From Gemmatimonadota bacterium (GTDB lineage: Bacteria; Gemmatimonadota; Gemmatimonadetes; Longimicrobiales; Gaopeijiaceae): 64,000 bases of DNA. The notes under the pieces were generated by a model that was not told the origin of the DNA, did not search any database, and saw only the letters and a list, made by a program, of their open reading frames with translations. A program made the position numbers and the translations under genes. The DNA is taken from positions 372,001 through 436,000 of the forward strand of contig JAJDXG010000056.1 in NCBI GenBank assembly GCA_022823365.1, given 5' to 3'. This document shows, piece after piece, positions 1,620 through 51,145 of this stretch. Within the stretch, counting starts at the first letter, position 1. Every line of letters begins with the position of its first letter.

Positions 1620-2717
1620 CTACCGCCTCACCCGCACCATTTCCCGCATCCGCCGGCGCACTTCGTCGGCGACTCCCGCCTCGTCCAGCCGGTTCCACAG
1701 CCGCGCGATGGTGTTCGCGTCCACCCAGCCGGGCACGGAGGTCTGCCAGGCCTGAGCCGCGCGGAAGGCGTCCACGGCCTCGACGGTCTCGCGGTCGTAG
1801 AGGAGCGCGTCCTCCGATTCCGCAGAAGGCGGCGGCGAGCCCGGCCGGTAGTACCCCAGCGCGTGCAGCATCACCTTGAGCTGGAGGACGTCGCGGCCCG
1901 CGAACTGCTGCAGACTGCGGAAGCCGAGCGTCTCCGAGATGGTGTCGTAGATGCGCCGCACCTCCCTGATCGGTTCCGGGTGCTCGCACACGTTGATGTC
2001 GGTGGTCACGCCGTCCTGACGGCGCGACATCCCGGGACGCGGGTCCGCGACCAGTACCGCCGCCGACTGGGTGCGGCCGTGGCGGCCGTCTCCACCCAGC
2101 ACCTGCCCGGCGTAGAGCGCCTCGATCAACCGGTCGGCGAGATGGCGCCCCGACCCCTCCGTTCTCTCGAACGCGACCGCGACCGAGTCCACCACGGCGG
2201 TGCTCACCAGCGCGTTGCCCTGCACGGCGTAGTTGAGGCCCGTGCGCTCCCAGACCCAGTCGCCCCGGTCCTCGGCGCCGTACTGGCCCGAGCCGGTCCA
2301 CTGGGCCGACCGGCCCTGCATGTCGATCACGCCCACTTGCCTGCGTTCCCGCCCCTCGTCGGCCGCCACCACGCGGTCCATGGCCTCCTGGGGGGCCACG
2401 CCTTGCTCCAGAAGGTCGAGGAGGTCGTGACCGTACTCGAGCCGGGTGCCGCCCTGGGTCGCCACCGCGCCTACCCCCGGCCGCACCCACGGGACGGCGT
2501 TGCCCACGCACGCCACGCGGGTGGTGACCGCCACCCCGGACTCGCCGGTCGCGGGGTCGATGCCGACGATCGAGAAGGTGTTGAACACAAGGTCCTCCCC
2601 CCAGCCTACCGGCTCCTGGGCCGCCAGGGGCGTGGCGACCGCGAGCAACGGCGGAAGCAGGAGCGGGGCGGCGAACGCGGCGATGGCGCTTCGGGAGGGC
2701 GAGGGCGATCGGGACAT
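1620..2717 (-). CDS. Secreted DUF1028 protein with C-terminal peptidoglycan-binding domain
   Basis: About 365 residues. A signal peptide (AIAAFAAPLL...PLAAQ) is followed by a DUF1028 domain, recognisable by TFSIVGIDPATGESGVAV, VPWVRPGVGAVATQ and ERRQVGVID. This family has an Ntn-hydrolase-like fold and no settled function. The last 80 or so residues (LKVMLHALGYYRPG to WVDANTIARLW) look like a peptidoglycan_binding_1 domain, as in other DUF1028 proteins. The start chosen is the ATG at 2717 because GGAGG stands six bases before it; an in-frame ATG four codons earlier overlaps that ribosome binding site. It is divergent from the amidohydrolase at 3000, with about 280 bases between them and no feature that I recognise there. 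Confidence 0.8.
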   Translation of the reverse strand: MSRSPSPSRSAIAAFAAPLLLPPLLAVATPLAAQEPVGWGEDLVFNTFSIVGIDPATGESGVAVTTRVACVGNAVPWVRPGVGAVATQGGTRLEYGHDLLDLLEQGVAPQEAMDRVVAADEGRERRQVGVIDMQGRSAQWTGSGQYGAEDRGDWVWERTGLNYAVQGNALVSTAVVDSVAVAFERTEGSGRHLADRLIEALYAGQVLGGDGRHGRTQSAAVLVADPRPGMSRRQDGVTTDINVCEHPEPIREVRRIYDTISETLGFRSLQQFAGRDVLQLKVMLHALGYYRPGSPPPSAESEDALLYDRETVEAVDAFRAAQAWQTSVPGWVDANTIARLWNRLDEAGVADEVRRRMREMVRVRR

Positions 2718-2999
2718 GGCTACCTCCATGCTTTGCGCCAGGGGGCTGCCGCCACCTGCCGGGACGGGAAACTGCGCCCACGCGGGCCGCGCGTAAGTCG
2801 TACACCCGCCAACATGGCACGCCATCCCCGGGAGTCGCCACCGCCCGGACAATCGCGGCTTCCCGGATTCGGGGGCATGGCCGGCACCGCCGTCTCTCGC
2901 CAAGTTCCCATACGCGCCACGGCCGACGGTCTCCGCGCCGGGGACGCAATTCGTATCTCGACCCGAATGCCCGATCACTGCCACGCCGGAGCGCCCACC

Positions 3000-4127
3000 A
3001 TGCGCCGAACCGCACCGATCGCCGTGCTGTTTCTCCTGCCCGTCGCGCTGGACGCGCAGGGCCGTCGGCCGAACTTCGCGCAGCCGACCCTCCCGCCGCC
3101 GAGCATCACCGAATACCAGCCGCGCTCCACCCTGGTCGTCCCCGAGAACCCGGTGCCGCGGGCGAAATACCCGGTTGTCGACCTGCACGGGCATCCCCCC
3201 TCGCTCGCCGACCCGGCCACCATCGAGCGGGTGGTGGCGGCCATGGACGAGTTGAACCTCCAGGTCATCGTCCAGGCGCGCGGCAGCTCCGGCAGCCGCC
3301 TCACCCGGCAGATCGAAGCGGTGCGCGCCGCCGGCCACGCTGACCGCTTCGTGTTCTTCACCACGCTCGACCTGCGCAACGTCGGTCCCGGGTCGGGCGC
3401 CCGCATCGCGGCCCAGCTCGAAGAGGACGTGCGCGCCGGCGCGGTGGGCATGGGCGAGATCGGCAAGCAGTTCGGGCTCACCACCCGAAAGGCCGACGGC
3501 ACCCGCCTCCAGCTCGACGACCCCGAACTCGACATCGTCTGGGAGACCGCGGCCCGCCTCGGGATCCCGGTCTTCATCCACACCGCCGACCCCGCGGAGT
3601 TCTTCCAGCCCCTCGACTACGAGAACGAGCGCTGGCTCGAGCTGGCCATCTTCCCCAACCGCCGCTTCTTCGACAGCGAGCGCTTCCCGTCCTTCGAGGA
3701 GCTGATGGCCGAGCGGGACCGGATGCTGGCGAAGCATCCCAACACGACCTGGGTTCTGGCGCACATGGGATGGCACACGCAGGATCTCGGTCGCCTGGGT
3801 GAACTCTTCGACCGCTTCCCCAACGTCCACGGCGAGGTCGGCGCCGTGCTCTACGACCTGGGACGCCAGCCCCGCTTCGCGCGCGAGTTCTTCGTCCGGT
3901 ATCAGGACCGTATCCTCTTCGGCAAGGATTCCTTCCAGCCCGACGAATACCCCTACTACTGGCGCGTCTTCGAGACCGAGGACGAGTACTTCGACTACTA
4001 CCGGAACTACCACGCCTTCTGGAAGCTCTACGGTATGGGGCTCCCGGACGATGTCCTGCGCAAGGTGTACTACGCGAACGCGTTGCGGATCATCCCGAAC
4101 ATGCCCGAGGAAGGCTTCCCCCGGTAA
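3000..4127 (+). CDS. Secreted amidohydrolase-2 family protein
   Basis: About 375 residues with a short signal peptide (MRRTAPIAVLFLLPVALDAQ). The TIM-barrel metal-dependent hydrolase signature is visible: DLHGH near residue 60, FIHTAD near 190, LAHMGW near 255 and the final aspartate in LFGKDS. These are the expected metal ligands and catalytic acid of amidohydrolase family 2 (decarboxylases and lactonases such as the AMD/ACMSD group). The substrate is unknown. The long acidic and aromatic stretch EDEYFDYYRNYHAFWKLYG near the end is well preserved in periplasmic members. An in-frame ATG twelve codons earlier is a possible alternative start. It converges on the sugar dehydrogenase with only eight bases between stop codons. 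Confidence 0.75.
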   Translation: MRRTAPIAVLFLLPVALDAQGRRPNFAQPTLPPPSITEYQPRSTLVVPENPVPRAKYPVVDLHGHPPSLADPATIERVVAAMDELNLQVIVQARGSSGSRLTRQIEAVRAAGHADRFVFFTTLDLRNVGPGSGARIAAQLEEDVRAGAVGMGEIGKQFGLTTRKADGTRLQLDDPELDIVWETAARLGIPVFIHTADPAEFFQPLDYENERWLELAIFPNRRFFDSERFPSFEELMAERDRMLAKHPNTTWVLAHMGWHTQDLGRLGELFDRFPNVHGEVGAVLYDLGRQPRFAREFFVRYQDRILFGKDSFQPDEYPYYWRVFETEDEYFDYYRNYHAFWKLYGMGLPDDVLRKVYYANALRIIPNMPEEGFPR

Positions 4128-31774: not shown

Positions 31775-31858
31775 GCCGGGATGGCGGAACAGGTAGACGC
31801 GAAGGTCTCAAAAACCTTTGCCCGTTGGGGCGTGTGGGTTCGAGTCCCACTCCCGGCA
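31775..31858 (+). tRNA. tRNA-Leu (anticodon CAA)
   Basis: The acceptor stem GCCGGGA pairs with TCCCGGC. The D arm contains GGAACAGGTAGACGC. The anticodon stem AAGGT/ACCTT encloses the seven-base loop CTCAAAA, giving anticodon CAA for UUG codons. A long class II variable arm follows, then the T arm GTGGG-TTCGAGT-CCCAC. The 3' CCA is not encoded. A TAGCTTATACC stretch lies about 12-20 bases upstream and may be the -10 region. A DUF374 gene begins 27 bases downstream and may be read from the same transcript. Confidence 0.95.
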
Positions 31859-31885
31859 CTCACGCACGGACGGAGGAAGCGCCGC

Positions 31886-41375: not shown

Positions 41376-43832
41376 CTATTCCCCGAAGGGTATCCAGATG
41401 TTCTTGACCTGCGTTGCCCGGCGCAGGAATTCGTCGCCTTCCCCCTGCTCGGGCGTCCGCCATCGCCGCCGGAGGCCGGTCTCCGTCCAGGTCTGCTTCA
41501 TGTTGCCCGTGGAGAGGCGCTCGACCTCCTCCACCCCGCTATCCGCGCCGAAGTACCAGATGGCGTCCACGTCGTCGTGCGCGGCCAGCACCGGCGCCAG
41601 TTCCGCATGCTCGCCCGTGACGACGTTGACCACCCCGCCCGGCAGGTCGGAGGTGTCCAGCACCTGGCAGAGGTCGGTGGCGGAGAGCGGGCAGCGCTCG
41701 GAGGGAACGGCGACCACGGTGTTGCCGGTTGCGATGACGGGCGCGATCAGCGAGATGAAGCCCAGCAGCGGGTTTCGCTCCGGGCACACGATGGCGACCA
41801 CACCCAGACTCTCGGGCATGGCGAGGGTGACGTTCCGGTAGGGCGTGCGGTGGACGTGCCCGTCCCACTTGTCCGCGTGCGCCGCATAGCTGAAGAGGCG
41901 GCGGATCGAGAGATCGACTTCCTCGGACGCGCGGCCGGCGCTCTGCCCGGTGAGTGACCGGATGCGGGCCGCGAACTCGGATGCGCGCACGGCGAGGTTC
42001 TCGGCGATGAAGTAGAGGATCTGCGCGCGGTTGTGGGCGGTGCGGTCGGCCCATCCGCCGGCGTGCCGCGCCGCCTCGACCGCGTTGCGGATATCCTTGC
42101 GGTTGCCGCGGCCCACTTCCCCCACCACCTCGCCCGAGGCCCCGCGGACGAGCGTCGTGTAGCCGCCGTCGGGCCGCGCCTGGCGGCCCCCGATGTACAT
42201 GCGGATGGTGCGGTCCACCCGCGGCATCGCGTCGCCCGCAAGCGGTGGCTCGTCGTCTTCCGGGGGCACGTCCGGCCGCCCGTCCTCGAACGAAACCGAT
42301 TCGCCCGCGACCATTTGCGGTACGGCATCGACGTTCTCCCTCGTCGATGCCCCGTCGCGTGCCTGCCACGCGGGCTTCAGGTACTCGTGGAGACCCTCAC
42401 GTCCACCCTCGCGCCCGAAGCCGCTCTCGCGGTAGCCGCCGAACCCGGATGCCGCGTCGAAGACGTTGGTGCAGTTGATCCACACCGTGCCCGCCTTCAC
42501 CTTCGGCGCGATATCCAGCGCCAGATTGATGTTCTCGCTCCAGATGCTGGCGGCAAGCCCGTAGCGGGTGTCGTTGGCGAGCTGAACCGACTCCTCCGGG
42601 GTGCGGAAGGTCATCATCACCACCACCGGCCCGAAGATCTCGACCTGCGCGATGGCGGACGCGGGCGCGACCCGGGTGCACAGCGTCGGCGGGTAGAAAT
42701 ACCCCTCCGCCGGCGTGCTCCACGACGGCTGCCAGATGTGCGCGCCGTCCTGCCGGCCCTCGTCCACCAGCCGCCGAATCTTCTCGAGCTGCACGGGTGC
42801 GATGATGGCGCCCATGTCCACGGCCTTGTCCAGCGGATCGCCCATGCGCAGCATCTCCATGCGCGCCTTGAGCTTGCGCTCCAGCGTCTCCGCGACGCCC
42901 TCCTGAACCAGAATGCGCGAACCCGCGCAGCACACCTGCCCCTGGTTGAACCAGATGGCGTCGACGACCCCCTCGACCACGCCGTCCAGGTCCGCGTCCT
43001 CGTAGACGATGAAGGGCGACTTGCCCCCCAGTTCGAGCGAGAGACGCTTGCCGCTGCCCGCAGTCCCGCTGCGGATGAGGCGCCCCACCTCCGTGGAGCC
43101 GGTGAAGGCGATCTTGTCGACATTGGGGTGCGCCACCAGGGCGGCACCGGTGCGGCCGTCACCCGTCACCACGTTCACGACTCCGGGGGGCAGGCCGGTC
43201 TCCCGGCAGATCTCGGCGAAGAGCAGGGCGGTGAGGGGCGTGAACTCGGCGGGCTTGAGCACCACCGTGTTCCCGGTGGCCAGCGCGGGCGCGATCTTCC
43301 ACGCCAGCATCAGCAGCGGGAAGTTCCAGGGGATGATCTGGCCGGCAACGCCGACGGGGACCTGATCCGGGAACTCCGCGTCCATCAGTTGCGCCCATCC
43401 CGCGTGGTGATGGAAGTGGCGCACCACGAGGGGGATGTCGATGTCGCGCGATTCGCGCACGGGCTTGCCGTTGTCCAGCGTCTCGAGGACCGAGAAGAGG
43501 CGCGCATGCCGGTGGATGCGGCGCGCCAGCGCGTAAAGGAAGCGGGCGCGGGCGTGACCGCCGAGCTGCGCCCATGGCTCCTGCGCTGCGCGGGCGGCGC
43601 GCACGGCTTGGTCGACATCCCCGCGGCCTCCTTGTGTAATGCGCGCGAGCGCCGTCCCGTTCGCCGGGTTAACGGTGTCGAACGCTTCCGCGCCCGTGCC
43701 TTCGACCCAGTCGCCGCCGATGAAAAGGCCGAAGGAGCGTGCGCGCTCACGGAGCCAGGCTTGCGCCCGGTCGGCGCTCTCGGGCGCGGGCCCGTATTCG
43801 AGGGTTTCGAAGATCTCGGAGATTCGCGGCAT
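41376..43832 (-). CDS. ALDH16-type aldehyde dehydrogenase with a second, truncated ALDH domain
   Basis: About 818 residues. The N-terminal 480 form a complete ALDH with LSLELGGKSPFIVYED and the catalytic cysteine in NQGQVCCAGSRILVQEG. After a linker, a second ALDH-like domain (residues about 540-818: RMYIGGRQARPDGGYTTLV, VCPERNPLLGFISLIAPVIATGN, GGVVNVVTGEH) keeps the cofactor-fold segments but jumps from IWYFGADSG to the C-terminal oligomerisation strand TQVKNIWIPFGE, with no catalytic cysteine. This is the ALDH16 architecture known from animals and some bacteria. It begins 14 bases after deoC, so it may oxidise the acetaldehyde that DeoC releases. Confidence 0.85.
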   Translation of the reverse strand: MPRISEIFETLEYGPAPESADRAQAWLRERARSFGLFIGGDWVEGTGAEAFDTVNPANGTALARITQGGRGDVDQAVRAARAAQEPWAQLGGHARARFLYALARRIHRHARLFSVLETLDNGKPVRESRDIDIPLVVRHFHHHAGWAQLMDAEFPDQVPVGVAGQIIPWNFPLLMLAWKIAPALATGNTVVLKPAEFTPLTALLFAEICRETGLPPGVVNVVTGDGRTGAALVAHPNVDKIAFTGSTEVGRLIRSGTAGSGKRLSLELGGKSPFIVYEDADLDGVVEGVVDAIWFNQGQVCCAGSRILVQEGVAETLERKLKARMEMLRMGDPLDKAVDMGAIIAPVQLEKIRRLVDEGRQDGAHIWQPSWSTPAEGYFYPPTLCTRVAPASAIAQVEIFGPVVVMMTFRTPEESVQLANDTRYGLAASIWSENINLALDIAPKVKAGTVWINCTNVFDAASGFGGYRESGFGREGGREGLHEYLKPAWQARDGASTRENVDAVPQMVAGESVSFEDGRPDVPPEDDEPPLAGDAMPRVDRTIRMYIGGRQARPDGGYTTLVRGASGEVVGEVGRGNRKDIRNAVEAARHAGGWADRTAHNRAQILYFIAENLAVRASEFAARIRSLTGQSAGRASEEVDLSIRRLFSYAAHADKWDGHVHRTPYRNVTLAMPESLGVVAIVCPERNPLLGFISLIAPVIATGNTVVAVPSERCPLSATDLCQVLDTSDLPGGVVNVVTGEHAELAPVLAAHDDVDAIWYFGADSGVEEVERLSTGNMKQTWTETGLRRRWRTPEQGEGDEFLRRATQVKNIWIPFGE

Positions 43833-43846
43833 CCGGCGGGACTCGC

Positions 43847-44938
43847 TCAGGCCATGGGGTGTCGATGAGTGGCGGAATACCGGCCCGTGACGTGATGCTC
43901 GATCTGGCGTTCGATGTCGCCCAGGAGGGAACTGGCGCCGAAGCGGAAGAGGCCGGCCTGCATCCAGCTGGGTCCCAGCTCCTCGCGCATGAGCACCAGC
44001 CAGACCAGCGCGTGCTTCGCGGTGCCGATGCCTCCGGCGGGCTTGAAGCCCACGCGGTAACCGGTGCGCTCGCGCCAGGCGCGGATCTGGCGCACCATGG
44101 TGAGGCCGACGGCCAGGGTGGCGTTGACCTTCTCCTTCCCCGTGGAGGTCTTGATGAAGTCGGCTCCCGCCATCATGCACACCAGGCTCGCGCGCGCGAC
44201 GTTGCTGAGGGTCGCGAGTTCGCCGGTGGCGATGATGGTCTTCAGGTGGGCGCCCCGGGCCGCCTCCCGGAAGGCGCCGACCTCGTCGTAGAGGTCGCCC
44301 CAGCGGCCGCGCAGCACATGCTCGCGGCTGATGACGATGTCGATCTCGGAGGCGCCCGCCGCCACGGCCGTCCGGATCTCGTCGAGCCGCTCGGGGAAGG
44401 GCGTCTGGCCGGCGGGGAAGCCCGCCGCCACGGCCGCCACGGGGATGCCGGACCCGGCAAGCGCTTCCACCGCGGTGGCCACCATGCTCGGGTAGACGCA
44501 CACGGACGCGACCTGGATGGGCAGCCCGGACGCACCCGCCGCTTCGAGCAGGTCGGCCCTCACGGGATTGCGGGCCTTGCCGCACAGCCTGCGCACCCGC
44601 CCGGGGGTGTCATCTCCCGCGAGGGTGGTGAGGTCGATGCAGGTCGCCGCGCGCAGGAGCCACGCCGCCTGCCACTCGCGCTTCACGCTCCTGCGGCCGG
44701 GCAGGGAAGCGGCCCGGCGCTCCGCGGCACTCCGGTTCACGCGCAGGTGGCGCAGCAAGTCGAGTTCGAGGGGCGTTCCCGGGTTCCACGGATGGAGGTC
44801 GGAGTGCACCGTCTGGTCTGGCGGCACCGGGACGTCGCGTGCGGACGGACGCGCCTCGTGGGGGTCGGGGGTCGCGGGCGACCGGTGCACCCTGCGGGCG
44901 AAGGCGGATGATCCGGTGGGGGTGACGTCGTCAGGCAT
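43847..44938 (-). CDS. deoC: Deoxyribose-phosphate aldolase with extended N-terminus
   Basis: About 363 residues. DERA splits 2-deoxyribose-5-phosphate into glyceraldehyde-3-phosphate and acetaldehyde. The Schiff-base lysine is in ADFIKTSTGKEKVNATL, the helper lysine in RVGFKPAGGIG, and the aspartate in SEIDIVISREH. The first 100 residues are an extension seen in the eukaryote-like DERA group, partly basic and probably poorly ordered (RVNRSAAERRAASLPGRRSVKREWQ). ATG at 44938 was chosen; the ribosome binding site is weak. The ALDH16 gene follows, which suggests a deoxynucleoside-salvage pathway ending in acetate. Confidence 0.88.
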   Translation of the reverse strand: MPDDVTPTGSSAFARRVHRSPATPDPHEARPSARDVPVPPDQTVHSDLHPWNPGTPLELDLLRHLRVNRSAAERRAASLPGRRSVKREWQAAWLLRAATCIDLTTLAGDDTPGRVRRLCGKARNPVRADLLEAAGASGLPIQVASVCVYPSMVATAVEALAGSGIPVAAVAAGFPAGQTPFPERLDEIRTAVAAGASEIDIVISREHVLRGRWGDLYDEVGAFREAARGAHLKTIIATGELATLSNVARASLVCMMAGADFIKTSTGKEKVNATLAVGLTMVRQIRAWRERTGYRVGFKPAGGIGTAKHALVWLVLMREELGPSWMQAGLFRFGASSLLGDIERQIEHHVTGRYSATHRHPMA

Positions 44939-45058: not shown

Positions 45059-45092
45059 CCCAAACCCTCATGTAACTTCAGGGGTTGGCGTC
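45059..45092. promoter_or_regulatory. Dyad element upstream of deoC, similar to one upstream of the agmatinase gene
   Basis: A 34-base stretch containing, on the minus strand, CCCTGAAGTTACATGAGGG, an imperfect dyad reminiscent of MerR-family operators. A related element with about three quarters of its bases shared lies at 48484-48515. Each is about 110-120 bases upstream of a minus-strand gene (deoC, agmatinase). Regulation is inferred only from the similarity and the shared position. Confidence 0.3.
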
Positions 45093-45165: not shown

Positions 45166-45300
45166 GGTTAGCTTCGAGATCCTGTGCGCACGGAGAAGCA
45201 AGGGGGCGGGTGCGGTCTGGTGACCTCAGCGGTCTTCAACCGTCTGGCCCGGCTAGAACCCGGGCTGGTGAGTTCGATTCTCACACGCTCCCGCCACTCC
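45166..45300 (+). repeat. Direct repeat, left copy, containing a degenerate tRNA-Sec
   Basis: About 135 bases resembling 50011-50148. The shared part starts at GGTTAGCTTC, diverges in the spacer, then runs nearly unbroken from the tRNA 5' end through CGCCACTCC. Within the tRNA the copies differ by three substitutions and a two-base deletion. The pair brackets about 4.7 kb. It looks like a tRNA duplication of the sort left by element integration or by tandem gene duplication. Confidence 0.75.
45202..45296 (+). pseudogene. Degenerate tRNA-Sec copy
   Basis: It matches the tRNA-Sec at 50048 over its whole length, including the encoded GCCA end. The anticodon loop is shortened from CTTCAAA to CTTCA by loss of two A residues. 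The D stem has a C opposite T (TGCGGT against ACCTCA), and one variable-loop base differs. A five-base anticodon loop should not decode, so I read this as a pseudogene. The T arm and variable stem are intact. Confidence 0.75.
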
Positions 45301-45411
45301 TGTTTGTAACTGTTTGCGAATACGTTACTTGTGAGCAATATGTCAGATTCGTTTTCACTCAGTATTCCTGAGCGAGAGCGGGGGCGGTAGGGCAACCTAC
45401 GGGAGTAGAAT

Positions 45412-45750
45412 GTGACCTGTGAATCCTTGGGCTACGCGCTTGCTTGCGCTGAGCTTCTGGGTGTGATTCTCGGTGCCTTCGGCGTTCTCCGGGAAAGCTT
45501 TCGTGACTTGGCGGCTGACCGGCCGTATGGCGAGGGTCGTTACGGAGAGGGTCCCTATGGGGGACAACCGGGCGCTGTCGCGGAGCGGTTGATCAAGCTG
45601 GCCGTACCCCTAGGGCTATTGCCCTCTGACCACATCCTGACGAACACGGATCAGCGAAGGAACGCCATTATGGCGATCGTAGGCGTCGCGGTCGTGGTAC
45701 TCGCCATGCTCGTGGATGTCGCTATCGTCAAGCCCGTCTGCATTGCTTGA
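45412..45750 (+). CDS. Small two-helix membrane protein of unknown function
   Basis: A 112-residue protein, not recognised. Two hydrophobic helices (LGYALACAELLGVILGAFGVL and AIMAIVGVAVVVLAMLVDVAIV) flank a loop with a repeated, Tyr/Gly-rich motif DRPYGEGRYGEGPYGGQPG. The GTG start at 45412 follows GGGAG. The DNA before it (45300-45411) is AT-rich for this genome and could contain its promoter. It is the first open frame after the degenerate tRNA-Sec copy, so it may be element cargo. Confidence 0.55.
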   Translation: MTCESLGYALACAELLGVILGAFGVLRESFRDLAADRPYGEGRYGEGPYGGQPGAVAERLIKLAVPLGLLPSDHILTNTDQRRNAIMAIVGVAVVVLAMLVDVAIVKPVCIA

Positions 45751-46007
45751 GAGGCTCGCGAGTGGCCACGTCCCCGGGAGCGATGGTCACTTAGGCTTGT
45801 GGCCTTGCCGTCCTCGAAGGCAGCCCGGAGCCGGTGCGATCCGTCGCGCACCCGGTAGCTTGCAGCCGTGAAGTCCTCGTGTTGCTGTTTGACCTGAGCT
45901 TGCTCAGCGGCTAGACGCCGTTTCTCCGCGATCCGCTTCGCGTTGCCTAGGCGCCTGCCGGTGATCTCCAGTACCTCTTCGGTGCGGAGATCGTCGTAGG
46001 GACTAGG
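45651..46007 (-). pseudogene. Start-less ParB-like remnant
   Basis: An open frame of 119 codons bounded upstream by TAG, with no ATG in its N-terminal part. It reads LRTEEVLEITGRRLGNAKRIAEKRR, then YRVRDGSHRLRAAFEDGKA. The DGSHR segment resembles the DGxHR motif of ParB/Srx-like N-terminal domains, but the order of elements does not match a full domain. The tail overlaps the membrane-protein gene on the other strand and is likely meaningless. I think it is a decayed gene of the integrated element. Confidence 0.35.
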
Positions 46008-46020
46008 CTAGGGCGGCGAG

Positions 46021-46187
46021 TCACGCGGCTTCGCGCTCCTCCATCCATGCGCGGATCTGTTGTGCGCGCCAGCCGATGCTGTTCATGCCGAAGCGCAGGG
46101 TGGATCTCGACAACGTCTCCTCAGAGTCGTGCGGCTCAGGCCGATCGCCGTGCAAACCTCTTTGGACCTCAGAATCCGCGTTTCCAT
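46021..46187 (-). pseudogene. Frameshifted AlpA-family transcriptional regulator
   Basis: From the ATG at 46187 the frame reads METRILRSKEVCTAIGLSRTTL, the N-terminal winged-helix start of AlpA/excisionase-like regulators, and then runs into nonsense and a stop. The other frame gives LRFGMNSIGWRAQQIRAWMEEREAA, a typical AlpA C-terminus, ending at 46021. The total of 167 bases is not a multiple of three and the joined protein lacks several residues in the turn, so a small deletion has broken the gene. AlpA proteins control integration and excision of prophages and islands. Confidence 0.6.
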
Positions 46188-46270
46188 CGTGTCCATCCGT
46201 GTGCAAGGTGGCCGCTGCACACTGACGAAAGCACGGAGCCCGATGCCGCACAGGGTCCACTATAGAGCTC

Positions 46271-46816
46271 CTATACTGACCACCCAGGGAACCGCTTCTT
46301 CATCCTCCGGTAGACGCTCCGGACGGTGTCTTCCTGCATTTCGAGGGCCTCGCCAATCTCCAGCAGCGCCTTCTCGTGCGTCCATCCACCACGGCGCATC
46401 AGCTTGAGTAGTCGCATGATCCCCATATCCCGCCGTAGTCGTGGCGCAAAACGAGGGTTCGCAGGCTTCCGGGGAGCCTTCAGGCTTCCGTTGAATCGTC
46501 GAATCGCCACGGTTACGGCAAAGTCCTTCAGAGCCACGGGAATTGGCTCTCCCCATTCCTGGAGGTGCTCCAAGAGACTGTGCAGACCGTCCCAGGCCCA
46601 TCGCTTCCTGAACGCGAAGTGCCGGTAGAACAGCAGGAGCTTGTGTTTGTGCTGATAGTCCTCGCCGTCCGTGTCGCCCACTTCTTCAGCCGCCATCCCG
46701 TACAAAACCCACCACATAGGGAGATCGGAGAGCGGAGGAGTCGCTTTGACCAATGCCCGGATGCGCTTGTGGACTTGATCGCGCGGGAGATCCGGGCCCA
46801 AATCGTTCTCATCCAT
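46271..46816 (-). CDS. Hypothetical protein with possible C-terminal helix-turn-helix
   Basis: A 181-residue protein that I do not recognise. The N-terminal two thirds are helical and aromatic-rich (PMWWVLYGMAAEEVG, LLLFYRHFAFRKRWAWDGL). The last 45 residues (GWTHEKALLEIGEALEMQEDTVRSVYRRMKKRFPGW) have the spacing of a helix-turn-helix DNA-binding segment. It stands alone on the minus strand next to the broken AlpA gene and its codon use is less GC-biased than its neighbours', so it is probably part of the integrated element. No clear ribosome binding site precedes the ATG. Confidence 0.55.
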   Translation of the reverse strand: MDENDLGPDLPRDQVHKRIRALVKATPPLSDLPMWWVLYGMAAEEVGDTDGEDYQHKHKLLLFYRHFAFRKRWAWDGLHSLLEHLQEWGEPIPVALKDFAVTVAIRRFNGSLKAPRKPANPRFAPRLRRDMGIMRLLKLMRRGGWTHEKALLEIGEALEMQEDTVRSVYRRMKKRFPGWSV

Positions 46817-47052
46817 GGCGATGACCGTCTCGGCGGCGTCCTCGAACGTTGGAATGGCGCCGCCCCGCGGATCGCCTCCCTAGGCGACGATGCGGCGATT
46901 CTCCAGCGCCGTCTTCCGGGCCATTTCCGGCCTCACGATCCTCAACCGTTGAGCCCAAGTCTTCGACAACGTGCTGGTCGTCGTAGGCTTCACGAGCAGC
47001 GACAAGCTGTGTCTCCCGCGGTCGTCGCCGTACCTGCCGTGGCGCCTCTGGA
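46817..47052. other. Element-edge region without an intact gene
   Basis: About 236 bases. On the minus strand a short frame ends in KTWAQRLRIVRPEMARKTALENRRIVA and then a stop at the CTAGG near 46882. It looks like the tail of a lost gene, but I cannot assign it. Nothing else is identified. Confidence 0.3.
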
Positions 47053-48375
47053 CTACCGATCCACCCCCCCAGGCCGCCCATCACTCCTGGTCAGCGGGCT
47101 CAGGTAATCCCGATTGCCGAGCCCCAGCTTCCGCAGGGCGACGCCGGTCAGGCATTCGTCCACCACCTGCTTGGCGTTGAGGGCGGTGGTGTAGCCCGGA
47201 TCGACCAACGGGTTGAGTTCCACCAGGTCGAAGCCCACCAGGTTGTTTTCGGAGCAGAGGCCGCGGAGGATGGGGAAGACTTCGCGCGGGGTCAGGCCTC
47301 CGGGCACGGGTGTGCCGGTGCCGGACGTGTACGCCGGGTCCATCACGTCGATGTCGAAGGAGACGTGGAGGTACTCGGGTCCGTCGTTGGCTTCGTCGAG
47401 AACGCGCTGCATTACCGTGGCCCATCCGTCGCGCTCGATCTCCGCCATGGTATGGTACCGGAATTCGTTCTCGCGCATCCACTCGAAGCCCTCCGGGCCG
47501 GGCCAGCTGCCCCGCAACCCCACCTGGATGAAGTTCCTGCCGAGGATGTGGCCGTCGTCGACGAGACGGCGCACGGGCTGGGCGTGCGAGATCAGGTGGC
47601 CCATCCGCGATCCGCCGGCGTCGTAGTGCGCATCAAAGTGGATGACGCCGACGTTCTCCTTGCCGTACACGTCCGCGAGCCCGGCCACGTTGGCGAATTC
47701 GATGGAGTGGTCGCCGCCGATGATCACCGGGATCGCGCCGGTCTCGGCGATCTCGCGCACCATTCGGCGGATCGGCTCCATGCTGCGCTCGACGCTGAAC
47801 TGGTCGATGGGCGCGTTCCCGTAGTCGACTGCCGTCAGTTCGCTGCGCCAACTGATCATCGTCTCCATGCTTCCCGTGCTCCGCCGCATGGCGCGCAGCG
47901 CGTTGGGCCCCTCGCCGGCGCCTCGGAAACCGACTCCCATGTCCACAGGCGCGCCCATGAACGCCACCTCGACCTCGCCCGCGACGAGGTCCTCGATGGT
48001 GCGTGCGATCGGGAGGCCGAAGAAGCTCAGCACTGAGCCGACCTCGATCGGGCCCGGTTCGCGGGGCGGGTCGCCTGAGATGTCGCGGTCGCGCCACACT
48101 TCGAGGTTCGGGTCGTTCGGGTCGAGGCGGATGATGGCGGCTTCGGGGTCGGGGGCTTCCTGCGCGGCGCTGTCCGTCTGCTGCGCGGCGGGATCGGCGG
48201 CGTCGCCCGCGGCGGCTGCGGCGTCCGCTTCGGTGCCGGGCGACGCGTCGTCCCCGGACTCCCTAGGCGACGCCTCGCAGGCAGCGGCCAGCAGGCCGGC
48301 GAGAAGCAACAGGCTGGTAAGCGAAGCCGCCGGCCCAGCCGCGCCAGAGCGTGAAGAAGGTGAACTGTCTCCCAT
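47053..48375 (-). CDS. Agmatinase/arginase family ureohydrolase, predicted lipoprotein
   Basis: About 440 residues. The binuclear manganese site is complete: VIIGGDHSIEFAN, VIHFDAHYDAG, and SFDIDVMDPAYTSGTGTPVPGG, with the terminal FDLVELNP. The family hydrolyses agmatine or related guanidino compounds to urea. Unusually, the protein starts with a lipoprotein signal (LLLLAGLLAAAC) and an Ala/Asp/Pro-rich linker of about 45 residues, so it should sit in the periplasm attached to a membrane. Substrate cannot be fixed by motif; guanidinobutyrase or other guanidino hydrolases are alternatives. A dyad element lies about 110 bases upstream. Confidence 0.82.
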   Translation of the reverse strand: MGDSSPSSRSGAAGPAASLTSLLLLAGLLAAACEASPRESGDDASPGTEADAAAAAGDAADPAAQQTDSAAQEAPDPEAAIIRLDPNDPNLEVWRDRDISGDPPREPGPIEVGSVLSFFGLPIARTIEDLVAGEVEVAFMGAPVDMGVGFRGAGEGPNALRAMRRSTGSMETMISWRSELTAVDYGNAPIDQFSVERSMEPIRRMVREIAETGAIPVIIGGDHSIEFANVAGLADVYGKENVGVIHFDAHYDAGGSRMGHLISHAQPVRRLVDDGHILGRNFIQVGLRGSWPGPEGFEWMRENEFRYHTMAEIERDGWATVMQRVLDEANDGPEYLHVSFDIDVMDPAYTSGTGTPVPGGLTPREVFPILRGLCSENNLVGFDLVELNPLVDPGYTTALNAKQVVDECLTGVALRKLGLGNRDYLSPLTRSDGRPGGVDR

Positions 48376-48483: not shown

Positions 48484-48515
48484 CCCAAGCCTTACGTAAC
48501 GTCAGGGTTGGACGT
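48484..48515. promoter_or_regulatory. Dyad element upstream of the agmatinase gene
   Basis: On the minus strand this reads CCAACCCTGACGTTACGTAA followed by GGCTTGG, close to the element at 45059-45092. The core TGACGTTACGTAA is a near-palindrome. Its place about 110 bases before the agmatinase start suggests an operator or promoter. No regulator gene is adjacent. Confidence 0.3.
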
Positions 48516-49901: not shown

Positions 49902-50010
49902 GCTGACGAGCCGGGAGTACCGTTTCGGCACCGACCTGGCCAGCTTCGGCGTCCCGCCGCTGGCCGCATCTCCAAACCGCGCCCGCAGTCTGTCAGCACG
50001 ACCGGACCTG

Positions 50011-50148
50011 GGTTAGCTTCCCCGATACCCGTCCGCCGGAGCAGCGAGGGGGCGGGTGGGGTCTGGTGACCCCAGCGGTCTTCAAAACCGTCTGGCCCGG
50101 CTTGAACCCGGGCTGGTGAGTTCGATTCTCACACGCTCCCGCCACTCC
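50011..50148 (+). repeat. Direct repeat, right copy, containing the intact tRNA-Sec
   Basis: About 138 bases resembling 45166-45300, from GGTTAGCTTC through the tRNA to CGCCACTCC. Sequence beyond both ends is unrelated in the two copies. The two copies are in the same orientation, as expected of integration or recombination borders. Confidence 0.75.
50048..50144 (+). tRNA. selC: tRNA-Sec (anticodon TCA)
   Basis: The 97-base gene has the features peculiar to selenocysteine tRNA. A six-base D stem TGGGGT/ACCCCA encloses CTGGTG. The anticodon loop CTTCAAA gives TCA, reading UGA. A long variable arm has the stem GCCCGG/CCGGGC. The T arm is GTGAG-TTCGATT-CTCAC. The acceptor GGGGGCG pairs with CGCTCCC with one G-T pair, and GCCA is encoded. 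An eighth acceptor pair would be G-A, so the helix seems one pair short of the usual eight. The genome should therefore decode UGA as selenocysteine. No selenoprotein or selA/selB gene is visible in the window. Confidence 0.85.
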
Positions 50149-50209: not shown

Positions 50210-51145
50210 ATGCCGCGGACGCTCCCCCTGCTCTTGCTCGTGGTTGCCGCGCTGACGGCGACCGATGCCTCCGGCCAGACCTGGAGGGGGCTGGTCGTAG
50301 CCCCCGAGCAGCGCTGTTCGCCCTACCGCGCCGATGACTACAGCTACCCCCAATCCGTCGAAGCCTCGATCGTCCGCGAACTCGGCGGCATCTACTCTCC
50401 CTACACGGGCCAGCGCTTTGCCTCCACCGGGGAGACCGACATCGAGCACATGGTCGCGCGCAGCGAGGCCCACGACTCGGGGCTCTGCGCGGCCGGCCTC
50501 GAGACCCGCCGCGCCTTCGCCCGCGACCTGCTCAACCTGACGCTCGCAAGCCCGGGATTGAACCGTGGGTTCAAGGGCGCGAGCGATGCCGCCGAATGGA
50601 TGCCGCAGCGAAACCGGTGCTGGTTTGCCGCACGTGTGGTGGCAGTCCGGCAGCGCTGGGGCCTTACCATCGACGCGCGAGAAGCCGAGACGCTGGAAGC
50701 GGTTCTGTCCGGCTGCGCGACCACCGAACTGGACGTCAGCGGCGGCGATTGGGCCGATGCGGTGCATGGGTCCCTGGCCTCGGCCGACGCCTTGCGGCTG
50801 TGGGACGACAACGGGAGCGGGACCATCACGTGCGCGGAGGCTCGGCGCCACGGAATCGCCCCGGTGCCGCGGGACCATCCGGCCTATCCGTTCATGCGGG
50901 ATGGAGATGGCGACGGCGTCGTGTGTGAGCAGGCCGGTGAGCCCGCGGGTGCATCGCAGGCTCCCGCGCGGCAGACGGGGTTGCCTGACGCCCTTCGGCT
51001 GTGGGACGACAACGGGAACGGGATGATCACGTGCGCTGAAGCACGGCGTCACGGAATCGCCCCCGTTCGCCGCGGCCACCCGGCCTATCCGTTCATGCGG
51101 GACGCCGACGGCAATGGCGTCGTCTGCGAGCGGAACGAGGGGTAG
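50210..51145 (+). CDS. Secreted HNH nuclease with two excalibur calcium-binding domains
   Basis: About 311 residues. After a signal peptide (LPLLLLVVAALTATDASGQ), a DUF1524-like HNH domain shows DIEHMVARSEAHDSGLC, ARDLLNLTLASPGLNRGFKGASDAAEW and MPQRNRCWFAARVV, which carry the expected His and Asn of a nuclease. The C-terminal third contains two near-identical excalibur-type units (ALRLWDDNGSGTITCAEARRHGIAPV ... YPFMRDGDGDGVVCE, repeated at the end), with DxDxDG calcium loops. Secreted HNH-excalibur nucleases may degrade extracellular DNA for nutrition or act on competing cells. It lies 65 bases downstream of tRNA-Sec. Confidence 0.82.
   Translation: MPRTLPLLLLVVAALTATDASGQTWRGLVVAPEQRCSPYRADDYSYPQSVEASIVRELGGIYSPYTGQRFASTGETDIEHMVARSEAHDSGLCAAGLETRRAFARDLLNLTLASPGLNRGFKGASDAAEWMPQRNRCWFAARVVAVRQRWGLTIDAREAETLEAVLSGCATTELDVSGGDWADAVHGSLASADALRLWDDNGSGTITCAEARRHGIAPVPRDHPAYPFMRDGDGDGVVCEQAGEPAGASQAPARQTGLPDALRLWDDNGNGMITCAEARRHGIAPVRRGHPAYPFMRDADGNGVVCERNEG

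Follow-up and report, generated by a model that had tools for sequence, protein, structure and literature searches.

The route to selenocysteine through SelA, SelD and SelB is an established pathway, the textbook bacterial tRNA-Sec, encoded by selC, has an 8/5 fold, and insertion by an integrase normally duplicates no more of a tRNA than its 3′ end. Departures from the textbook picture have been described: some bacterial tRNA-Sec have a 7-bp acceptor (12-bp AT stem) and a 7/5 fold with seven residues between the T stem and G73, and extra tRNA-Sec predictions occur, many with structure-breaking changes, as does a pseudogene copy in human, tRNA-Sec2 (PMC5330540). In E. coli, selC-tRNA is listed as an island hotspot, and the integrases of these islands are P4-related (PMC11537424). 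Here, we analyse a window of 64,000 nucleotides from a Gemmatimonadota genome (G000:C8:372001-436000; G000 comprises 63 contigs and is 98% complete) that contains two tRNA-Sec homologues separated by 4.8 kb. We are confident that the gene at 50048 is the functional selC of a genome that decodes selenocysteine, and that the original tRNA-Sec has turned into a pseudogene beside the remains of an integrase element. The features are collected in Table 1.

Table 1. Features of the tRNA-Sec locus in window numbering, followed by genes elsewhere in the same genome, given by contig.
Feature	Position	Strand	Evidence or remarks
Normal tRNA-Leu(CAA)	31775-31859		
Aldehyde dehydrogenase gene, conserved left neighbour marking the ancestral tRNA-Sec position	41376..44585	-	PF00171, 658 bits
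Putative tRNA-Sec pseudogene, ancestral position	45202..45296	+	RF01852, ARAGORN, alignment, fold
19-bp core CACACGCTCCCGCCACTCC, then element sequence (attL-like)	45282..45300	+	
Decayed integrative-element remnant	45301..47052	not assigned	G+C, absence in relatives
Frameshifted AlpA-like regulator relic	46024..46187	-	PF05930
Arm-DNA-binding tyrosine integrase, N-terminus relic	46814..47050	-	internal deletion, one stop
Arginase/agmatinase-family gene, variable segment between the tRNA-Sec copies	47053..48375	-	PF00491, 249.9 bits
DUF3299 gene, variable segment	48535..49116	-	PF11736; absent at same place in G003
ZrgA-family zinc-uptake gene, variable segment	49161..49901	+	PF10986
Predicted promoter region of intact copy, CTGTCAG ... 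GGTTAGCTT	49982..50047	+	conserved in sister species (alignments)
tRNA-Sec (selC), intact, predicted working copy	50048..50144	+	ARAGORN, RF01852, fold, sister-species identity
Same 19-bp core CACACGCTCCCGCCACTCC at tRNA 3′ end, probable integration core (attB-like context)	50130..50148	+	exact copies
Excalibur / GmrSD_C-domain gene, right neighbour, variable	50210..51145	+	absent here in G001, G004, G009, G010
selA	C4:61847-63193		516.8 bits
selB	C62:72185-73261		310.1 bits (NCBIfam cut-off 242)
selD	C57:112818-113726		295.1 bits
Formate dehydrogenase alpha (FdhA)	C18; L071:4072-6876		934 codons, single TGA at codon 393
AhpC/TSA-family peroxiredoxin	C53		..GHWUPWCAGQL.. (UxxC), one in-frame TGA
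AhpC/TSA-family peroxiredoxin	C62		..TRGUTVQM.., TGA at peroxidatic position
SelW/Rdx-family (SelW-like) protein	C62		MRVSIEYCTAUNYEP (CxxU, CTAU), one in-frame TGA

An earlier note on this DNA, made from the letters alone, had called a tRNA-Sec at 50048-50144, and this call stands. ARAGORN places a tRNA-SeC with anticodon tca at exactly these positions on the plus strand, and the Rfam covariance model RF01852 covers 50048-50140 at 74.8 bits (E 1.6e-13; gathering cut-off 47 bits), a match that lies far beyond chance and that assigns the gene to tRNA-Sec and to no other tRNA type. The minimum-energy fold is clean, with a 7-bp acceptor, a long D arm, a 7-bp variable arm, a 5-bp T arm and a 7-nt anticodon loop, and its energy is 3.2 standard deviations lower than that of shuffled sequences (z = -3.2). 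As in the bacterial tRNA-Sec described by RF01852, the anticodon is UCA, the D and variable arms are long, the D loop contains UGGU, the discriminator is G73 and the gene encodes the CCA. Six sister species carry exactly this tRNA sequence and a seventh (G006) a slightly different one, and the contiguous match of the window to G006 begins at 49982, upstream of the tRNA; this conservation points to a promoter in the intervening stretch. The gene at 50048 is thus very probably an ordinary working selenocysteine tRNA gene, as far as prediction can tell.

The acceptor helix was noted before as having seven rather than eight clean base pairs, which is indeed the case: the first seven pairs are standard and the eighth is G-A, where RF01852 has a standard pair, and the gene is consequently one standard acceptor pair short of the bacterial 8/5 fold. 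The accompanying description of this helix as atypical holds against the textbook fold, and for pair 8 only; it does not hold within the order, where G-A is the norm. Pair 8 is G-A in 22 of the 26 distinct tRNA-Sec sequences of the order, C-G in two and another mismatch in the remaining two (the rows for L020, L030, L034 and L038, whose 3′ ends ARAGORN had trimmed, were re-read manually). Seven standard acceptor pairs are shared with the described 7/5 tRNA-Sec, in which seven residues separate the T stem from G73 (PMC5330540). Here, by contrast, eight residues are kept, so that the frame is that of an 8/5 fold with a mismatch and not of a 7/5 fold with a bulge. Because most SelB-bearing relatives have the same pair, we treat G-A as variation of the lineage, and see in the sequences no sign of decay or of lost identity.

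A working tRNA-Sec calls for its partners, and selA, selB and selD, which the earlier note had proposed to look for in the rest of the genome, are all present. SelB, whose absence was to count against a tRNA-Sec, exceeds its cut-off, and the same frame also holds SelB beta-barrel and winged-helix domains. With selA, selB, selD and tRNA-Sec together, G000 has the gene set of the Sec-decoding trait, as do bacterial selC systems. All ten sister species of the genus also have a SelB above the cut-off, as do most of the genomes sampled from families f1 and f2, and none of those sampled from family f3 does; the distribution of tRNA-Sec across families mirrors that of SelB. Three tRNA-Sec-like matches at 52-54 bits, in G025, G055 and G048, the last being the lone match in f3, are tRNA-Ser(tga) and therefore do not represent further tRNA-Sec duplications. 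The other, sub-threshold RF01852 matches in G000 (at most 44.6 bits) were judged by score to be ordinary tRNAs; one of them, at 403775-403857 of the contig, is the tRNA-Leu of the window at 31775. From this gene content, we infer that the tRNA-Sec encoded at 50048 would be charged and converted by SelA to Sec-tRNA with selenophosphate derived from SelD, and that SelB would deliver the Sec-tRNA at UGA codons with a 3′ SECIS hairpin, FdhA, the SelW-like protein and the two peroxiredoxins being among the likely targets.

That the genome encodes selenoproteins, as had been expected from the tRNA, finds support in at least four genes with an in-frame TGA at the position of a catalytic Cys. In FdhA, which matches TIGR01591 at 735.5 bits, the TGA lies in the context NCSRAUHAPTVAGLA, and the same single TGA is found in nearly all members of the genus. 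A SECIS-like hairpin presents a GGUCU loop 18 nt after the UGA, and the offset is likewise 18 nt in fdhF of E. coli K-12, which served as a control. At the default Rfam cut-offs none of the four Sec loci has a SECIS; in a weaker search SECIS_3 aligns at the UGA of FdhA with 45.2 bits (E 1e-7), below the Rfam cut-off of 63. Free-energy folding of this region is not significant (z -0.35), so what supports a SECIS hairpin beside the in-frame UGA of FdhA is the GGUCU motif, its distance from the UGA and the match to the covariance model. The two peroxiredoxins and the SelW-like protein are predicted to be selenoproteins from the position of the TGA rather than from an established SECIS. Taken together, these genes suggest selenocysteine use, with several predicted selenoproteins, in a little-studied, sponge-associated group of Gemmatimonadota. 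Eight genomes of family f2 (G019, G021, G023, G025, G027, G047, G051 and G055) have a tRNA-Sec and an FdhA without in-frame TGA; their selenoproteins must therefore be others. At the FdhA locus of L071, a NuoEF-like gene (ORF 2364-4103) precedes the alpha subunit gene and itself has a canonical tRNA gene shortly upstream, in antisense orientation (2045-2118, minus strand).

The second tRNA-Sec homologue had been overlooked in the first reading of the sequence. RF01852 matches it at 45202-45292 with 60.4 bits, and ARAGORN labels 45202-45296 as tRNA-Leu(caa). Compared with the intact gene, it carries a 2-nt deletion, which leaves 5 nt instead of 7 in the anticodon loop, and three substitutions. 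Two of these fall on a single D-stem pair and break it (G-C to C-U), and in the predicted fold a proper acceptor stem is no longer formed. A simple assembly error is an unlikely source of the deletion, because the copy bears the three substitutions as well. Could this copy instead function as a tRNA-Leu(CAA)-like tRNA or a suppressor tRNA built on a tRNA-Sec body, as allo-tRNAs are? The ARAGORN label would agree with such a role, and the alignment shows no damage to the acceptor, variable and T arms or to the encoded CCA, and the G discriminator is retained. However, an allo-tRNA or suppressor tRNA should combine an intact fold, a 7-nt anticodon loop and conservation, and the copy lacks all of these: its loop is too short, its two D-stem changes disrupt the same pair instead of restoring it, its acceptor stem does not form properly in the fold, and the variant is present in G000 only among the genomes compared, whereas six sister species share the intact sequence unchanged. 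In addition, the promoter at this place is diverged or deleted in sister species, and a normal tRNA-Leu(CAA) already exists in the window. We hold a functional variant to be very improbable and read the 45202 copy as a pseudogene, which automatic annotation gets wrong either way, as tRNA-Leu(CAA) by ARAGORN or as tRNA-Sec by Rfam.

Which of the two sites is the old one? Genera g3, g5 and g20, which belong to the same family, have their sole tRNA-Sec beside the same aldehyde dehydrogenase gene (L019, L022, L034), and in G005 and G006, of the same genus, one tRNA-Sec lies between this left flank and the right flank of the window, without the intervening 4.8 kb. Since the sole tRNA-Sec of all these genomes adjoins the left flank, the damaged copy appears to occupy the ancestral place and the working gene a derived one. 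In G004, G009 and G010, the working tRNA-Sec is found beyond agmatinase and ZrgA, and all that persists of tRNA-Sec at the left flank is a promoter relic, which aligns to the G005 and G006 promoters with scores of 41-42 (maximum of 19 in 1000 shuffles). In principle, agmatinase and ZrgA could have stood to the left of tRNA-Sec ancestrally, the 45202 copy having arrived later on a mobile segment with a whole tRNA-Sec and promoter. Such an arrival would suit the segment 45005-47052, which is specific to G000, includes the copy and runs right up to agmatinase, and it would suit G003, where the left flank is joined to agmatinase directly, without this segment. It is at odds with the direct contact of the sole tRNA-Sec with the left flank in the other genera and in G005 and G006, and with the promoter relics, which mark the left flank as an old position in G004, G009 and G010 too. 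We consider a late arrival unlikely and take the left flank as the ancestral site. Two further records concern the tRNA-Sec of this genus. In the sister species G008, a quite different tRNA-Sec (G008:C112:9967-10058, GGAGGTGTCTGAGC...; L044, L076) lies on a contig that shows no similarity to the window; it may have replaced the original gene, have been gained horizontally or belong to a contaminating contig. The tRNA-Sec of this genus also occurs, with its flanks, on two public MAG contigs (L062, L067) whose titles name Gammaproteobacteria, apparently a misassignment.

The remains of a mobile element adjoin the damaged copy. The remnant has a G+C content of about 58-64%, against about 68-70% around it, and G003, G004, G009 and G010 lack the segment 45005-47052 at this place. 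The integrase relic is 76% identical to residues 15-107 of an integrase in G002, with one TAG (blastp 62%, E 6e-23), and the AlpA-like relic reaches 23.4 bits against PF05930 (cut-off 21) when two frames are read together with an X between them, single frames being weak. Both tRNA-Sec copies of the window end in the identical 19 bases. In G002, a sister species, the integrase starts about 145 bp from the same 19-bp core, beyond which the right flank of the window follows, and the N-terminus of this integrase contains the Arm-DNA-binding domain (PF13356, 52.8 bits). An Arm-DNA-binding integrase adjoining an att core in the tRNA 3′ end is thus seen in G002, and the window has only relics of this arrangement; the attL side comes from G000 and the attR side from G002, that is, from two species and not one, and the G002 contig starts inside the integrase. 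These junctions are the half-sites expected of an integrase that acts at the 3′ end of tRNA-Sec, which suggests that an element with an Arm-DNA-binding integrase used tRNA-Sec as its site of integration into the chromosome. No tRNA genes adjoin the 30 related integrases that we examined, so a general family of tRNA-Sec-specific integrases cannot be demonstrated. Arm-DNA-binding integrases are strongly expanded in genera g1 and g36, on many contigs and with up to about 20 copies per genome, and are absent at the search threshold from nearly all other genera of the family. A palindrome-like motif, CCTTACGTAACGTCAGGGTTGG, recurs with variants around the hotspot, at 48489-48511 and 45065-45087, and variants also lie upstream of tRNA-Sec in G001, G003 and G004.

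The genes between the two tRNA-Sec copies form a variable segment, in which the presence of the arginase/agmatinase gene differs among sister species. To the right of the intact copy, the Excalibur/GmrSD_C gene contains two 145-nt direct repeats (50786-50930 and 50987-51131; 83% identical), a duplicated Excalibur stretch.

How did a complete second copy come about? We infer that an element inserted into tRNA-Sec in an ancestor and that islands then gathered at the site; since a copy with its own promoter served at the far end of the island, the one at the old place would have ceased to function. An integrase acting only on the 3′ end would not duplicate a promoter, so simple insertion does not explain the complete second copy, which would stem either from a tandem duplication or from an element that carried a whole tRNA-Sec. 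If the whole tRNA-Sec was first duplicated in tandem and islands accumulated between the copies afterwards, the right copy's own promoter is accounted for, as is the homology between the two sites, which reaches about 66 bp upstream of the tRNA. No genome searched contains an uninterrupted tandem pair, which speaks against this order of events, and we regard it as a serious candidate that falls somewhat short of probable. More tentatively, and with greater doubt, an element with a complete tRNA-Sec and promoter may have inserted into tRNA-Sec and taken over its function, the sister species representing the stages of this process (no duplication, a complete but broken original, a promoter relic only, complete loss), with the nearly fixed G-A pair 8 of the order being accepted by SelA and SelB. 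The displacement of a single-copy tRNA gene by a hotspot island would in this locus have left a stepwise natural record, to which the clade-wide G-A pair 8 adds value beside the displaced gene and its stages of decay.

In conclusion, the reading of 50048 as the functional selC, with the original gene decayed at its left, joins two types of known system. As in the selC islands of E. coli with their P4-like integrases, the 3′ end of tRNA-Sec provides the integration core, and an Arm-DNA-binding integrase, an AlpA-like regulator and mosaic, variable cargo are found (PMC11537424). Unlike in those islands, the original tRNA gene here appears dead, and the work is predicted to fall to a complete, promoter-bearing copy at the far side; moreover, the phylum is another and the element in the window has decayed. 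The second copy resembles the described tRNA-Sec pseudogenes in its structure-breaking changes, and differs from them in that it stands at the original position, adjoining integrase relics (PMC5330540). While tRNA-Sec, tRNA-Sec pseudogenes and selC islands are each known already, what this locus adds is only the displacement and the stages of decay preserved across sister species.
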